Notes: generated from the letters alone by a model not told the origin. Shown: positions 19,079 through 34,606, counted from the stretch's first letter. The stretch: 37,139 nt of DNA from Myxococcales bacterium (GCA_003154095.1 PMCK01000251.1:1-37139); one strand, 5' to 3'. Made by a program: numbers and translations.

Positions 19079-19247
19079 CTGTGATCAGAGTGCAGGGTGC
19101 AGGGGCAGTGGGGGGTGCGGGGGTGGAATGGGATTTGGGGCGTGGGTTGGGGGTGGGGCGCACTTCGCGTTCCCCACCACGCCCGCCCCATTCAACAAAA
19201 CCCTCGCCGCATTGCCCCTGCGCGCTGCACCCTGCACGCTGATCACA
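19079..19247. repeat. MITE-like imperfect inverted repeat of about 165 bp with GTGATCAG/CTGATCAC ends; left end is copy 2 of the 54-bp direct repeat
   Basis: Left GTGATCAGAGTGCAGGGTGCAGGGGCAGTG vs right CATTGCCCCTGCGCGCTGCACCCTGCACGCTGATCAC; centre GGTGGGG...CCCCACC. Confidence 0.8.
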
Positions 19248-19414: not shown

Positions 19415-19741
19415 ATGCTCAATATCTATCCGGTCGTTCTCGAATTCATTGGTTCTATTCGCCCGCTCTTGGCGCAGATTGAGCGCCGGGACCGTGACCT
19501 TGGGCGGCAATTGCGGCGCGCTGCTAGCAGCGTCGCGTTAAACCTTGGGGAAGGCATGTACTCGCGCGGGGAGTTAAAGACGGCGCGCTATCACACAGCG
19601 CTTGGCTCCATGCGCGAGAGCTGGTCCTGCTTAGAGGTGGCTCAGGCGTTTGGCTATGTTCGCGCGTTTGATGCCACTTTGGGTGCGCAGATGAATCAGA
19701 TCATTGGCACGCTGGTTCGGCTGGTTGAGGGGAAGCGGTAG
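19415..19741 (+). CDS. four-helix-bundle protein (S23 / 23S rRNA intervening-sequence protein family)
   Basis: RDLGRQLRRAASSVALNLGEGMYSRGELKTARYHTALGSMRESWSCLEVAQAFGYV; start ATG at 19415 preceded by AAGGAGG. Confidence 0.9.
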   Translation: MLNIYPVVLEFIGSIRPLLAQIERRDRDLGRQLRRAASSVALNLGEGMYSRGELKTARYHTALGSMRESWSCLEVAQAFGYVRAFDATLGAQMNQIIGTLVRLVEGKR

Positions 19742-28341: not shown

Positions 28342-28645
28342 CTAGCTATCTTCAACAAAAGTGAGGTTTTTCCGATTCGGCGAACGTCGGACCGAATGAG
28401 TATTCTCTATGGAGGCCCACCGAAGCAATACTACGGCGCCGCATGCGCTGTCAGCGCCTAACAAGGGGGACAGCTTGGTATGATTAGGGCAAAGGGCCTA
28501 TCGCAGTCGGGCCCCCGATCAAGCTCTGGCCGCCTCGCCACAGCTGCTCAAGGCAATCAGCCTCACGGCGCTGGGGACTTTGAATTAGGCCCAGGCGGGC
28601 ATTCAGGTTGCGCTTGCCTGTGGCCAGGTTGAAAACTCCGACGGC

Positions 28646-28716
28646 GCCGCAGCTGTAGCCGCATCAGGTGCCGTTGCCGCGGCAGGGCTGTGGCCGCATC
28701 AGGTGCCGGTGCCGCC
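28646..28716 (+). repeat. GNN-periodic (Ala-codon-like) repeat tract A
   Basis: GCCGCAGCTGTAGCCGCATCAGGTGCCGTTGCCGCGGCAGGGCTGTGGCCGCATCAGGTGCCGGTGCCGCC. Confidence 0.85.
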
Positions 28717-28812
28717 CCGTTCGGGCGAGGTCTCGAGACGCGCTGCCCTGCGCGCGCCGTCACGACAAGAGATAACTGCGTTCGGCTGAGTGCACGTGCT
28801 ATTGGGGATTGC

Positions 28813-29445
28813 GTGAGCAAGGACGTCGAACTCCAGTGTCGGTGCGGTCAAGTTCACGGATGGCTACGCGATGTTTCGCCGAGCAGAGTCAATCGACCCC
28901 TCTGTTACTGCGACGATTGCCAGGCGTTCCTGCACTACCTCGGGCGAGCAGACCTTCTCGACGAACACGGCGGTACGGACGTCGTTCAAGTTGCGCCGAG
29001 CTCCGTGACGTTCGATCACGGTGAGGAATGTATCGTTGCCGTGCGATTGACTTCCAAAGGAATGCACCGGTGGTACGCCACTTGTTGCAAAACGCCACTC
29101 GGAAACACGTTGACCCCCGCAGTGCCCTTCATTGGAATGCCGCTCGAAGTACTTCGAGGTGCACCCACGGCTTCGGATCGCGATCAAACATTCGGCAAGG
29201 TCCGCGCCGCAATCATGGGAAAATTCGCGGTTGGTGGCCCTCCTAAAGGTTCGACAGGCTTCCCCATTGGAATGATTGCGCACGTAGCCCGTCTTTTACT
29301 GGGCTGGAAGCTTGGAGGTCGAGCGTGGCCACATCCGTTCTTCCGCAAAGGGACCGCTGCTCCAATATACCCCGTGACGATCCTAGAAGCCGGCGAGCGG
29401 GAAGCGCTGCGCGCGAAATGCGGACCGAATCCAACGGAGAGATAG
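28813..29445 (+). CDS. DUF6151/GFA-like zinc-binding protein
   Basis: VELQCRCGQVHGWLRDVSPSRVNRPLCYCDDCQAFLHYLGRADLLDEHGGTDVVQVAPSSVTF...WYATCCKTPLGNT Cys motifs. GTG start inferred. Confidence 0.75.
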   Translation: MSKDVELQCRCGQVHGWLRDVSPSRVNRPLCYCDDCQAFLHYLGRADLLDEHGGTDVVQVAPSSVTFDHGEECIVAVRLTSKGMHRWYATCCKTPLGNTLTPAVPFIGMPLEVLRGAPTASDRDQTFGKVRAAIMGKFAVGGPPKGSTGFPIGMIAHVARLLLGWKLGGRAWPHPFFRKGTAAPIYPVTILEAGEREALRAKCGPNPTER

Positions 29446-29457
29446 CGCATGTCGCCA

Positions 29458-29565
29458 GCTGTAGCCGCATCAAGTGCCGCTGCCGCGGCAGGTGCTGAGG
29501 CTGTTGCAGGTGCTGTGGCTGCTGCCGCAGCCGCTGCCGCAGCCGCCGCTGCGACCGCCGTGGTT
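29458..29565 (+). repeat. GNN-periodic repeat tract B (contains the exact 65-bp repeat, 29464-29528)
   Basis: 33 of 36 consecutive triplets begin with G (GCT GTA GCC GCA TCA AGT GCC GCT ... GCC GTG GTT). Confidence 0.92.
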
Positions 29566-29756
29566 TACTGACTTCGACCACTTACCAGTTCACTTGGGCG
29601 CAATTAGGGCTAGACACGCCGAGCGCCATCACGGGTATCACATTCCAGTTCACCGATCCCTGCGGGTTCAATAACGGTTATTCAACTTCCCCCTGCACCC
29701 CAACGCCATTTGCCGTGGACGTAACCGTCGACGATCTGCAGTTCACGACTAACTAA
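29562..29756 (+). pseudogene. 3' remnant of a TGG-lipoprotein-type carbohydrate-binding domain gene
   Basis: Translated by eye: TSTTYQFTWAQLGLDTPSAITGITFQFTDPCGFNNGYSTSPCTPTPFAVDVTVDDLQFTTN*. No start codon or N-terminal part; begins right at the end of repeat B. Confidence 0.75.
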
Positions 29757-29791
29757 TTAGAGTCCGCATCGGGCGGCGGCCGAACCGGCTC

Positions 29792-29933
29792 GCCGCGGCT
29801 GTGGCTGCATCAGGTACCGTTGCCGTTGCCGTTGCCGCTGCAGGGGCTGTGGCTGCTGCTGATGCTGGTGCTGTTGCAAGCGCTGCCGCAGCTGCGGCTG
29901 CTGTGACCGCCACCGTCGCCGGTGCCGCCGTCC
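29792..29933 (+). repeat. GNN-periodic repeat tract C
   Basis: GCTGTGGCTGCATCAGGTACCGTTGCCGTTGCCGTTGCCGCTGCAGGGGCTGTGGCTGCTGCTGATGCTGGTGCTGTTGCAAGC..., ends at the RCC1 gene stop. Confidence 0.9.
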
Positions 29934-29934
29934 C

Positions 29935-30852
29935 TCAGAATCCGGTCACCGTGACGGGTACCGAGCTGTTCTTCGCGGTGCCGTCACCGAGTTGGCCGGA
30001 AGCGTTGTCGCCCCAGCACTGAATCGAGCCATTCGGTAGTAACGCGCATGTGTAGTCAAGGCCTGCAGCGACAGCCGTAGCATTGGTGATGCCCGACACC
30101 GTGACGGGCACCGAACTGTTCGTTGTAGAGCCGTCGCCAAGCTCGCCATAACCGTTCCAGCCCCAGCACTGTATCGTGCCATCCGTTAGAACTGCGCATG
30201 TGTGGTTAGCGCCAGTGGCAATGTTAGTGGCGCTTGAGATGCCCGACACCATGACTGGCACCGAACTACTTATTGTACTGCCGTTGCCGAGTTCGCCGTA
30301 ACCGTTGTACCCCCAGCACTGAACCGTGCCCCCTATCAGAATCGCGCACGTGTGTGCGTCCGCGGCAACAGCAGTGGCGCTCGTGATGCCTGAAACCAGG
30401 ACTGGCACCGAACTGTTGGTCCAGGTGTTATTGCCGAGTTGGCCGTAGCCGTCGTGCCCCCAGCACTGAACCGTGCCGTCCGTCAGAACCGCGCATGCAT
30501 CGTACGAGCCCGCGGCAACAGCGGTGGCGCTCGTGATGCCCAAGACCGTAACTGGCACGGAACTATCGGTAGTCGTGCCGTTGCCGAGTTGGCCGAACGT
30601 GTTCACGCCCCAGCAGCGAACCGTGCCGTCCGCCAGTCGTGCGCACGCGTCGTAAGGGCCTGCGGCGACAGCCTTTGCCACCAGTTTTGCACTCGCAGCA
30701 CCTCCGCTCGACTCGGTTCCGCCCGTGCCGTCGGTTGCTAGGGTTCCGCCAGCACTCGGGGCGCCACCCGATCCTGCGTTGCTTTCGGCGCTTGTGGCAC
30801 CGCCGCACCCGATGCCAGCCAGTAGCAAGAGAGCAGCACGAAATTCACGCAT
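29935..30852 (-). CDS. lipoprotein with RCC1-like repeats
   Basis: MREFRAALLLLAGIGCGG lipobox; tandem repeats AVAAGSYDACAVLTDGTVQCWGHDGYGQLGNNTWTNSSVPV, five tandem units of about 50 aa. Confidence 0.92.
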   Translation of the reverse strand: MREFRAALLLLAGIGCGGATSAESNAGSGGAPSAGGTLATDGTGGTESSGGAASAKLVAKAVAAGPYDACARLADGTVRCWGVNTFGQLGNGTTTDSSVPVTVLGITSATAVAAGSYDACAVLTDGTVQCWGHDGYGQLGNNTWTNSSVPVLVSGITSATAVAADAHTCAILIGGTVQCWGYNGYGELGNGSTISSSVPVMVSGISSATNIATGANHTCAVLTDGTIQCWGWNGYGELGDGSTTNSSVPVTVSGITNATAVAAGLDYTCALLPNGSIQCWGDNASGQLGDGTAKNSSVPVTVTGF

Positions 30853-30951
30853 AACGTTACCAGGTGCCTGGCTCCTCGATGAGCCGACAGCGGTGCCCTA
30901 AAACAAGTCCCACGGACATATGGACAAATAGGTTACCAGATTCGGCTTACC

Positions 30952-31073
30952 GCCGCTAATGCAGCCGCAGCAGTGGCCGCATCAGGTGCTGTGGCCGCTG
31001 CAGGGCTGCCGCATCAAGTGCCGCTGCCGCGGCAGGTGCTGAGGCTGTTGCAGGTGCTGTGGCTGCTGCCGCC
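30952..31073 (+). repeat. GNN-periodic repeat tract D (contains the exact 65-bp repeat, 31008-31072)
   Basis: GCCGCTAATGCAGCCGCAGCAGTGGCCGCATCAGGTGCTGTGGCCGCTGCAGGGCTGCCGCATCAAGTGCCGCTGCCGCGGCAGGTGCTGAGGCTGTTGCAGGTGCTGTGGCTGCTGCCGCC. Confidence 0.92.
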
Positions 31074-31114
31074 GTTCGAGGGTCTCGCTTGTCTTTGCTT
31101 CTTGCGAACTGTAG

Positions 31115-31285
31115 TGCTCGGACGCTTCTATTGGTGAAAGCTGGCGCTCGGCCGTCACGGCTTGCGCAGAACTCTATCGCACATTGCGTAACGAGTACCC
31201 TGAAGTTCAACGCCGCGCGAACGCGGAACACGTCTCCATGGAGTATCTCCGCTGTACCGCCGCACGCTACGGTTCCGCCCAATAA
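31115..31285 (+). pseudogene. 3' remnant of unknown gene (about 56 aa tail)
   Basis: Protein-like frame without ATG: CSDASIGESWRSAVTACAELYRTLRNEYPEVQRRANAEHVSMEYLRCTAARYGSAQ*, lying between repeats D and E. Confidence 0.5.
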
Positions 31286-31292
31286 TCAGCAT

Positions 31293-31338
31293 GCAGCCAC
31301 AGTTGCTGCTGCCGCCGCAGCGCCAGGTCCAGCAGGCA
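31293..31338 (+). repeat. GNN-periodic repeat tract E (short)
   Basis: GCAGCCACAGTTGCTGCTGCCGCCGCAGCGCCAGGTCCAGCAGGCA. Confidence 0.65.
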
Positions 31339-31656
31339 CGCACCCCCAAATGTTCACTAGGCCTACGCCGATTGTTCATTATGAGTAATTTCAAACCAAC
31401 ATGATTGCGTCGGTGCATCGTGGTTCGAAACCCATTGCCTGTAACCTACACGAAAGTGCGCTTCGCCGGGTGCATGCTGCATTGGATGGGTGTCGTCGAT
31501 TCGGTTGCGTGCATGGTAGGCAATCGAAATTGCTCTCTGCGCACTAGTTACGTGCTTGACCGTCGGGCAAGCACCTGACAGTGTGCCCCTCCCGACGGAC
31601 GGCTACACGGGTCGTTCCGATCTTGTCCGCGACACGCGCAATACAGAGGAGACACA

Positions 31657-31920
31657 ATGGCAACTGTTATCGGTTATCACAAAGTGAAAGACACCAAACA
31701 TTGGCTTGCCTCGCCGATGCGAGAGAAGTTCTTCGGACCTCTCGGAATCACGGGTATCCGGAAATTCGTTGACCCCCAGGACCCAAATCGTGTGGCGGTG
31801 CTCATGGACGTTCCTAATATGGATGCCCTCCAAGCCGCGATGAAGACCACTGGGGCGGCCGAGGCGATGGCTCATGACGGAGTGTTAGCCGACTCATTGG
31901 TTATCCTCGTCGAGGCGTAG
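31657..31920 (+). CDS. small conserved hypothetical protein (87 aa, alpha/beta, possibly dimeric alpha+beta barrel type)
   Basis: MATVIGYHKVKDTKHWLASPMREKFFGPLGITGIRKFVDPQDPNRVAVLMDVPNMDALQAAMKTTGAAEAMAHDGVLADSLVILVEA; AGAGGAGACACA upstream. Confidence 0.8.
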   Translation: MATVIGYHKVKDTKHWLASPMREKFFGPLGITGIRKFVDPQDPNRVAVLMDVPNMDALQAAMKTTGAAEAMAHDGVLADSLVILVEA

Positions 31921-32078
31921 TGCACAGTCAGGAGTCCATAGCACCGGAACACTGACGGGGTGGCTCCTCTCCCACAACAAGGGTAAATGAAACCACACAG
32001 CCCTACGCGGACATTGTCGCAAGCGACATTGTGTTGCTTCATTTAGCTGGCGACGTCGAATCCGCGGCGTTTCGATCT

Positions 32079-32147
32079 GCTGCCGCCGCTGCCGCAGGTG
32101 CTGCTGCCACCGCAGGTGCGGCCCCTGCCGCAGCAGCCTCAGCGCGC
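32079..32147 (+). repeat. GNN-periodic repeat tract F
   Basis: GCTGCCGCCGCTGCCGCAGGTGCTGCTGCCACCGCAGGTGCGGCCCCTGCCGCAGCAGCCTCAGCG. Confidence 0.8.
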
Positions 32148-32189
32148 AGTGGCGTCAATCCCCAATTGCCCTAACTATGGGCCCCAGTC

Positions 32190-32408
32190 TCAGCCCGTGT
32201 GCACTCGACTCGTGTACTCAGCGTACGCCTTGGCCAGCGATCGGTCCGTGATGAACGAAAAGGTTGCTGGCTGGATCGCCTGCGGGTGCTTGGCCCGGGG
32301 CGAGTTCAATGCTTTGAGCATGTTGTCCACGATTGAAAACACACCTCCGCGCTTGGCTCGGCCCTTCGCGTAAATTGCGGCGCCATGCGCTAGAGACAGG
32401 TTACGCAA
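32190..32408 (-). CDS. possible small hypothetical protein or gene remnant
   Basis: RNLSLAHGAAIYAKGRAKRGGVFSIVDNMLKALNSPRAKHPQAIQPATFSFITDRSLAKAYAEYTSRVHTG has protein-like composition; no family recognised. Confidence 0.3.
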   Translation of the reverse strand: MRNLSLAHGAAIYAKGRAKRGGVFSIVDNMLKALNSPRAKHPQAIQPATFSFITDRSLAKAYAEYTSRVHTG

Positions 32409-32511
32409 TCGTGAGCGCTGCGCTAGCGAACGGCGAAAGTCAAGTTCATGCAGTGGGGCGAATCATGCAGGCTTTTCCTTCTCAAAGGCACGAGTAGCGT
32501 TGCCAGCGTGC

Positions 32512-33102
32512 TCACTCGCGCTTTCGGCGCGGGGTATCTGACTCGCCACGGACAGAAGTAGTTGGCTCAGCGTCATCCAAGACTACACGCGTATGGCGCT
32601 CGATATTGGGCGGCACCACAGGAAGCCCGTCATCGAGATCCAGCTCGCGAGCATTCGAGCGAACGCGCTGTTTCATTTCGCGGCGCCCGTCGAGACTGCG
32701 AAGCTGCTCGAGATGGTACTGTTGATGTTGCCGACTCGGGAACAGAACCGCCCACAAATGTGACGCGAGCCCGATACCCCAGCCAAGTGCGGGAAAGACA
32801 GCCCAAGGGAAATGCGTTGTCAATACGTTGATGGTTACCAACAATGCGTTGACCATAACGTAAGGGATCAAATGTGCAACGAACCCCCGCCACTGATCGC
32901 GACGCAATTCCATCAGTTCAGTGCGCTCACTGCGTTCAGCAGCGATCTCGATAGCGGCGGTTTCGATTGCGTCTTCCGGAATTCCAATTTCGCGCGCCGC
33001 AGCCAAGAGATCCTCGTGAGCCAACTCCCCGTGGTCCTCTCGCTCGATGGCGCGCCCTAGGATTGCATCCACTTCCTGTCGACTGTATTTACGCTGGGCC
33101 AT
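32512..33102 (-). CDS. 2TM-domain-containing protein
   Basis: MAQRKYSRQEVDAILGRAIEREDHGELAHEDLLAAAREIGIPEDAIETAAIEI then two TM segments (FVAHLIPYVMVNALLVTINVLT; WAVFPALGWGIGLASHLWAVLF). Confidence 0.82.
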   Translation of the reverse strand: MAQRKYSRQEVDAILGRAIEREDHGELAHEDLLAAAREIGIPEDAIETAAIEIAAERSERTELMELRRDQWRGFVAHLIPYVMVNALLVTINVLTTHFPWAVFPALGWGIGLASHLWAVLFPSRQHQQYHLEQLRSLDGRREMKQRVRSNARELDLDDGLPVVPPNIERHTRVVLDDAEPTTSVRGESDTPRRKRE

Positions 33103-33320
33103 GGCAATGGGGTTTAGATTGGGGTGATCGTGAAACCGACAGCTGTTTGGGGCAAGTCGACATCTCGATCTACCGTGTTTCAGTGTAATCAGGGGCGCGC
33201 TTGACGTTTGGGTTGCCGGAGCCACAGGGCTCATTGTGCGTTGAGATGGCAACGCGTGGGCCCTGTCCGAACGTGGCACCAAGCGCTCGCTCACTACCGA
33301 AATTGACGGGGCCGCGGGGA

Positions 33321-33449
33321 GTCGCGGCAGGTGCTGAGGCTGCTGCAGGTGCAGATGCAGATGCCGAAGCCACTGCAGGCCCTGCCCCCGCCGCAGGTGC
33401 CGTTGCCGCGGCAGGTGCCGCCGCGGCCGCAGATGCAGCTGCTGATGCC
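33321..33449 (+). repeat. GNN-periodic repeat tract G
   Basis: GTCGCGGCAGGTGCTGAGGCTGCTGCAGGTGCAGATGCAGATGCCGAAGCCACTGCAGGC...GCCGCAGGTGCCGTTGCCGCGGCAGGTGCCGCCGCGGCCGCAGATGCAGCTGCTGATGCC. Confidence 0.9.
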
Positions 33450-33559
33450 ATGTTGCCTCCCTCTCGTCTATTTGTGTGGAACTTGGCGCACTTGCATTAC
33501 AGAATACCGCCGAACGAATTGCGCATCCAAGGAAGCGATGTTCGCAGTAGGGTCAATTT

Positions 33560-34552
33560 GTGAAAACACCGAGACCGTCACCACCGAAGTCGTCGCAATG
33601 GCAGCGCCGGTATGACCAGGTGCTTACTTCTGACGTCGTTGCAGGCAAAATGCCCGGACCTCGTCCTCCGCCTGAGTGGGCTCCTGCCCTGAGTCAGCTC
33701 ACGAAGGTATCTCGCTCACCGACACTGGCCCCGTCGTGGTGGACGCCAGGGACGGCATTCTTTGGCAGTATCGAGACTCGGGCCGATCCGAGCAGTTACT
33801 ACTGGGACGGCATGAAGCGTCTGGGTCGCAGGGACCATCCGCTGTTTTTCTTTCAATTCACTTTGGCAGGTTGGGGACAATTCGAGCTCTATGGTCAGCC
33901 GCCGCGGCAGATTTCTCCGGGCACTGGATTTTTCGCGATTTTACCTTCGAAACATCGCTACTACTTACCGGAGGATTCGCCGGGATGGACCTTTGGTTGG
34001 ATTGGCATCTATCACCCGTACTTGCTTACACGAGTCATCAAGCAAGTTGCAGCGACTGGTCCAATTATCGAGATGCCACCTGATTCAGCCCTGACTGCAA
34101 GTGCATTGCGCCTTGTGTGCGGCGCCATCAAGAAGGACTTTCGCGATCGATACGACGTGGAACTGGCACTGTTCGAGTTCCTTTTGGCCTACGAACGCCA
34201 AGCACACGAAGCCAGCGATAGTTCCGGTGAACGCAAGCGGCTGCTCGAAGAAGTCCGGGCGCGAATTGTTGCAAGCTTGCCCAATGCGCTCAGCGTCGAC
34301 TCGCTTGCCACCGAATACGGTATGAGTCGCAGCCACTTCAGCCACTTCTTTCGGGCACGCACGGGAATGACACCGGCACGGTTCGCGACCGAGGTGCGGA
34401 TTCATGAAGCGACGCGAATGCTGCTCAATAGTCACGCAGCACTAAAACAGGTCGCCGACGCGTGCGGGTTCGCTAACGCCAACCATTTCTGTAAGGTCTT
34501 TCGTCGGTTCCAACATCTCAGTCCGGCGTCATACCGAAATGCGGTTCGGTAG
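33560..34552 (+). CDS. AraC-family transcriptional regulator
   Basis: N-terminal cupin-like domain; C-terminal LSVDSLATEYGMSRSHFSHFFRARTGMTPARFATEVRIHEATRMLLNSHAALKQVADACGFANANHFCKVFRRFQHLSPASYR. GTG start, exact start uncertain. Confidence 0.93.
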   Translation: MKTPRPSPPKSSQWQRRYDQVLTSDVVAGKMPGPRPPPEWAPALSQLTKVSRSPTLAPSWWTPGTAFFGSIETRADPSSYYWDGMKRLGRRDHPLFFFQFTLAGWGQFELYGQPPRQISPGTGFFAILPSKHRYYLPEDSPGWTFGWIGIYHPYLLTRVIKQVAATGPIIEMPPDSALTASALRLVCGAIKKDFRDRYDVELALFEFLLAYERQAHEASDSSGERKRLLEEVRARIVASLPNALSVDSLATEYGMSRSHFSHFFRARTGMTPARFATEVRIHEATRMLLNSHAALKQVADACGFANANHFCKVFRRFQHLSPASYRNAVR

Positions 34553-34606
34553 GCGCCGCCGATGCCGCCGATGCAGCCGCTGGAGCAGCAACCGCCACAG
34601 CGCCGC
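34553..34606 (+). repeat. GNN-periodic repeat tract H (short, directly after AraC stop)
   Basis: GGCGCCGCCGATGCCGCCGATGCAGCCGCTGGAGCAGCAACCGCCACAGCGCCG. Confidence 0.65.

Follow-up and report, generated by a model that had tools for sequence, protein, structure and literature searches.

The eight degenerate repeat tracts that alternate with unrelated genes in this DNA are, on balance, probably solo copies of a repeat that is linked to S23 genes and marks the junctions of gene modules; they would behave as slippage-prone direct repeats, and the block that contains them would be an old cluster of a single repeat dialect, GCN. Our analysis revealed that in several families S23 genes are physically coupled to such tracts, that the tracts change rapidly in length, and that units are present in one congener and absent from another. 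The window, i.e., the whole stretch of 37,139 nucleotides that was analyzed, is contig C87 of a Myxococcales genome (G000), a fragmented MAG of 8.66 Mb in 714 contigs.

The whole window was scanned for GNN runs at a segment threshold score of at least 12, with 20 order-2 Markov shuffles as the null. Eight segments on the + strand reached the threshold, all within 28,640-34,590, and none was detected in the shuffles. They cover tracts A, B, C, D (in two pieces), F, G and H, with tract E below the threshold; the eight tracts of the preliminary description are real, seven of them clear and one weak. Its statement that all of them read on the + strand was borne out except for tract F, whose strand is ambiguous, with a score of 17 on the - strand and 14 on the + strand, because GCN is self-complementary. 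The accompanying remark that no equivalent intergenic tract was noticed in the first 28 kb needs correction: a related feature there, a palindromic repeat, precedes the S23 gene at ~19.4 kb, and nothing else in the window exceeds the 99th percentile for self-complementarity. The preliminary description also missed the link to S23 genes. Pfam confirmed the earlier gene calls for DUF6151, RCC1 repeats, 2TM and AraC, and the A2M call matched as MG2/bMG3 (alpha-2-macroglobulin-like). The features of the window are as follows.

19081-19246, strand not assigned: palindromic repeat that lies upstream of the S23 gene and belongs to another dialect (self-alignment)
19415-19741, + strand: S23 / 23S_rRNA_IVP gene of the four-helix-bundle type, the copy carried by the window itself (Pfam PF05635, E=1.7e-9)
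28640-28720, + strand: tract A, GCN-type degenerate repeat (GNN scan; TRF period 18)
28690-29445, + strand: ORF with a DUF6151 domain from residue 43 (Pfam E=1.4e-31), the first codons of which lie in tract A
29448-29568, + strand: tract B, between the DUF6151 stop codon and a 5'-truncated gene, with 65 bp that match tract D exactly
29577-29757, + strand: headless tail of a gene, flanked by tracts B and C, 64% identical to an intact 377-codon paralogue on contig C711
29785-29935, + strand: tract C, running up to the RCC1 stop codon (GNN scan)
29935-30852, - strand: RCC1-repeat lipoprotein (Pfam)
30950-31076, + strand: tract D, in two pieces, with the 65-bp exact match to tract B (GNN scan)
31077-31286, + strand: headless frame ending at tract E (ORF reading)
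31285-31345, + strand: tract E, weak and sub-threshold, starting at the stop codon of the headless frame (read from the sequence)
31657-31920, + strand: 87-aa protein, for which a Pfam search gave no match
32072-32145, strand ambiguous: tract F (GNN scan, 14 on + and 17 on -)
32512-33294, - strand: 2TM-domain protein (Pfam)
33310-33452, + strand: tract G, with 20-22-mers in common with tracts A, B and D (GNN scan)
33560-34552, + strand: AraC-type regulator (Pfam)
34548-34605, + strand: tract H, starting at the AraC stop codon (GNN scan)

When the tracts of the window were pooled with those of a second contig of the genome, C622, 95% of first positions were G and 74% of second positions were C, with the third position nearly free (entropy of 1.84 bits). 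The tracts are composed of short tandem units (TRF), and tracts at orthologous loci of relatives vary in length, as microsatellites do. Folding of the tracts as single-stranded DNA did not exceed that of dinucleotide shuffles, and we therefore credit the GCN tracts with no special structure.

Inside the block several tracts adjoin or nearly adjoin gene ends. Tract B begins just past the DUF6151 stop codon and ends at the start of the truncated gene, where it stands in place of the first ~300 residues, as judged from the length of the intact paralogue; stop codons are likewise met by tracts C (RCC1), E (another headless frame) and H (AraC). On C622, the frame of a PIN-like toxin gene, as read from the ORFs, is cut short beside a tract of the same kind. 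The exact 65-mer common to tracts B and D, which are 1.5 kb apart, together with 22 bases common to tracts A and G, indicates that tracts were copied or converted within the block. The order of the block was not conserved in any of 59 relatives, none of which is a congener. No S23 gene is present in the block or within 9 kb of it on the window side, the nearest being that at 19.4 kb.

Within the genome the tracts proved to be clustered on few contigs, with unselected contigs almost free of this type; uniform spread was not seen. C622, a contig of 6.7 kb, contains eight GCN tracts in one direction, mostly 0.7-1.8 kb apart, and tracts of the GCN dialect were also found on C242, C273 and C170. 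Contigs C130, C418, C492, C15 and C16 carry tracts of other dialects (among them TCNGAN, GTNCCN/ACNGRN and GCCGAA). The genome also harbors a dispersed 15-base motif, CGTKCSCGTGCCGYC, with 109 sites compared to 37 for the reversed control (e.g., C622:2732, C418:6018 and C16:11174), often just beyond tracts and also alone. We considered this motif as an element end and rejected it, as it is a dispersed repeat that occurs with and without tracts.

Flank comparison revealed that many tracts precede an S23 gene, which encodes a four-helix bundle, and are separated from it by a leader with an inverted repeat. The genome encodes 27 S23 (PF05635) matches in three apparent subfamilies, and an S23 gene stands beside a tract on C170, C130 and C418 and in relatives; the block itself has none. 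The tract of the C170 S23 gene is also of the GCN dialect, and the flanks of the C622 tracts match the outer arm of the leader inverted repeat of this gene. We applied a strict test, a tract within 800 bp upstream of an S23 gene compared to background windows. An upstream tract was detected at 6/24 S23 genes of the window genome against 1/731 background windows (p=4e-9), and at all 19 of the 19 S23 genes of G038, a relative from another family, against 8/216 (p=5e-22). Further relatives gave 16/40 against 4/162 (p=9e-10), where just three genomes of this mixed set supplied the background. In G038, tracts were also frequent downstream (10/17), and the 5' bias there is therefore partial.

The S23 leaders themselves appear structured, with a folding z<-2 relative to shuffles in 12/24 leaders compared to 2/28 controls. 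By self-alignment, 10/22 S23 upstream regions exceeded the 99th percentile, part of this signal being the leader's own inverted repeat; self-alignment replaced a 7-mer inverted-repeat measure, which was dropped when its controls reached 1.0. When C622, C22, C130, C418 and the block were searched against Rfam, no rRNA was matched, which gives no support for a location inside a 23S rRNA gene, and the sub-threshold matches returned (isrG, miRNA, lncRNA) were discarded as chance and composition-driven. Scans of genome-contig and viral-contig collections with the S23 alignment of the window genome returned no relatives. Avd is a relative of S23, and a diversity-generating retroelement was considered on that ground only. 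By eye, the leader region upstream of S23 at one locus (L201, C50) is apparently broken by an IS3-like transposase fragment, and two S23 elements (L200 on C15 and L214 on C368) end near what look like tRNA genes.

Changes in tract length were apparent when G038 was compared with the Sandaracinaceae MAG MED-G138. Orthologous S23 genes with their leaders are 95-99% identical and gap-free between the two, while the tracts beside them measure 498/366, 360/258 and 144/414 bp (G038/MED-G138). At the first two loci the outer flanks are kept and the leaders are 97-99% identical; for the 144/414 pair the outer flanks are not kept, and it is possible that the wrong copies were paired. Such unequal tracts beside near-identical leaders indicate fast length change and also that not every tract is a breakpoint.

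Comparison of the congeners G040 and G049 revealed differences in DNA content at 3/3 tract sites compared. G040 carries convergent S23 gene pairs, and in all six visible pairs both flanking tracts run in the same direction, following the orientation of the element. At L264, where G040 has a pair, 28 bp separate the flanks in G049, in which a three-unit tract stays; the junction showed no clean target-site duplication. At L303, the pair of G040 is matched in G049 by two short tracts with ~110 bp of other DNA between them, including a dispersed repeat. The third site, a region taken as control, has a solo tract in G040, in place of which G049 has ~1.2 kb of different DNA that looks by eye like a gene. 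Collinearity between the two genomes extended over 17.3 kb in a tract-free control, which had a single indel close to its start. The S23-pair unit is thus filled or empty between congeners at two collinear sites, which is a gain in G040 or a loss in G049. G049 has no S23 gene, yet it contains ~40 tract or motif matches, and tracts therefore persist or spread without S23. One S23-pair region of G040 (L263) is flanked by a 155-bp direct repeat, 89% identical (positions 1-156 and 1892-2046); the core of this repeat, GAGCACGCCCGTCCCG, recurs beside tracts in G040 and G049.

The preliminary description took the tracts as marking junctions of inserted or exchanged gene modules. That tracts lie where DNA was inserted, lost or cut off is supported by the cut gene at tract B, the cut PIN-like frame on C622 and the three G040/G049 sites; it does not fit the two G038/MED-G138 loci, which are syntenic. 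The same two loci show the pattern that the description had set against its own reading, conserved synteny with tracts varying only by slippage. The cassette idea is thus partly supported, its pattern being partly right and its mechanism unproven.

The reading that we favor begins with a fast-evolving degenerate unit of 3 or 6 bases that would make up the leader of S23 elements or their end. A full element would run from tract to structured leader to S23 gene, with two convergent S23 genes in one relative, and some elements would close with another tract that runs the same way. Tracts of the same dialect and direction may then act as direct repeats, between which slippage, unequal recombination or end-joining would delete or swap the intervening DNA, and solo tracts would be leftovers of S23 elements beside unrelated or truncated genes. 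The block in the window would accordingly represent an old cluster of GCN-dialect tracts, neither an integron nor a site-specific cassette system. Against this reading, the link between the block and S23 runs via the dialect, the C622 flanks and C170, the strict tract test was passed by only 6/24 S23 genes of the window genome, and this genome is a fragmented MAG, of a kind of assembly that tends to break or misjoin at repeats. The two syntenic G038/MED-G138 loci and the G049 tracts without S23 also count against it.

A less probable explanation, though one with a real claim, is plain low-complexity expansion, in which slippage-prone GC-rich repeats without function pile up in permissive intergenic space, above all in islands of recent insertion. 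The shifts in tract length between unchanged flanks at two orthologous loci, the folding at the level of dinucleotide shuffles and the G049 tracts without S23 agree with it, while it does not account for the strong association with the 5' side of S23 genes, which recurs in different families, the nearly tract-free unselected contigs, the directional flanking tracts in 6/6 G040 pairs, or the identical 65-mer of tracts B and D. Somewhat less likely again is a bolder extension of the S23 link, namely that S23 elements are a mobile class with self-made degenerate microsatellite ends, and that the S23 protein helps to create, bind or recombine the tracts, which would seed cassette-like gene turnover without a known recombinase.

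We consider it improbable that the tracts are recognition sites of a dedicated cassette system, in which a recombinase yet to be identified, perhaps with the use of the S23 protein, would insert and excise tract-bounded modules. The stop codons of several genes that abut or nearly abut tracts would fit such a system, as would the different modules held between the same short tracts by congeners. All four contigs with integron-type integrases carry S23 genes, with a chance of about 1e-6 when contig size is ignored, which would also fit. No dedicated recombinase was found for the tracts themselves. The dialects also diverge so far between elements that a single sequence-specific enzyme is hard to picture, and genes are truncated at tracts, contrary to precise excision. 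An integron cassette array with unusual attC sites is very improbable. The genome encodes four integron integrases above the NCBIfam cut-off (on C613, C22, C130 and C418), and C622 contains NTase-like and PIN-like genes (by eye), which are common in cassette arrays. The search for attC-like sites gave a clear instance only at L048 (C22, 4915-5046), where the long arms pair, and this indicates an ordinary integron somewhere in the genome, and on C418 the integrase frame stops against an S23 gene. As described earlier, no integron integrase is present on C87, nor is there one on C622, within the limits set by the contig ends; RYYYAAC/GTTRRRY pairs with matching arms are absent from the window block and from C622, and genes are cut, all of which speaks against an orthodox cassette array. 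Equally remote is an origin of the tracts as coding remnants of alanine-rich linkers, as in the lipoproteins of these bacteria: the freedom of the third position resembles synonymous codon drift and repeat linkers are present in a lipoprotein-like paralogue of the same genome, but the frame relation to the flanks is not kept among the C622 copies, the dialects freely mix aspartate and glutamate codons, and several tracts follow stop codons.

The link of S23 to fast repeats, structured leaders and presence/absence sites makes the role and mobility of S23 testable in culturable relatives, and it could explain the shuffling of single genes at places in these large genomes that lack integrons and transposases. 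No function is known for S23 proteins (PMC4990558). In the Coxiella IVS, a short heptamer repeat lies just before the S23 start codon and its number varies between strains (PMC4990558). Our literature search, which left most subscription papers outside its scope, found S23 only in rRNA intervening sequences and no free-standing S23 elements with such tracts; we could not find an earlier description of the S23-tract pairing.

The elements resemble the 23S rRNA IVS in that both are short and structured, look selfish and contain a gene of the S23 family. In contrast to the IVS, they are free-standing in the chromosome with up to ~30 copies and have tracts of about 60-500 bp, with paired convergent S23 genes in one genus. 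Integron cassette arrays share the arrangement of single unrelated genes split by repeated sites in one direction; here, however, there is no attC structure and no adjacent integrase, and genes are truncated at the sites. Bacterial MITEs and REP elements are similar in their many dispersed, intergenic, non-coding copies, whereas the solo tracts lack conserved terminal inverted repeats and keep a pattern, not a sequence. Short tandem units and fast length change are shared with bacterial microsatellites (SSRs), from which the tracts differ by their element-specific dialects, by two fixed bases with a free third, and by their ties to S23 genes and module junctions. The logic of eukaryotic LTR elements and solo LTRs, in which direct repeats bound a unit and solo repeats occur elsewhere, is also similar, although the repeats here are degenerate microsatellites and clear two-sided tracts occur in one genus only.
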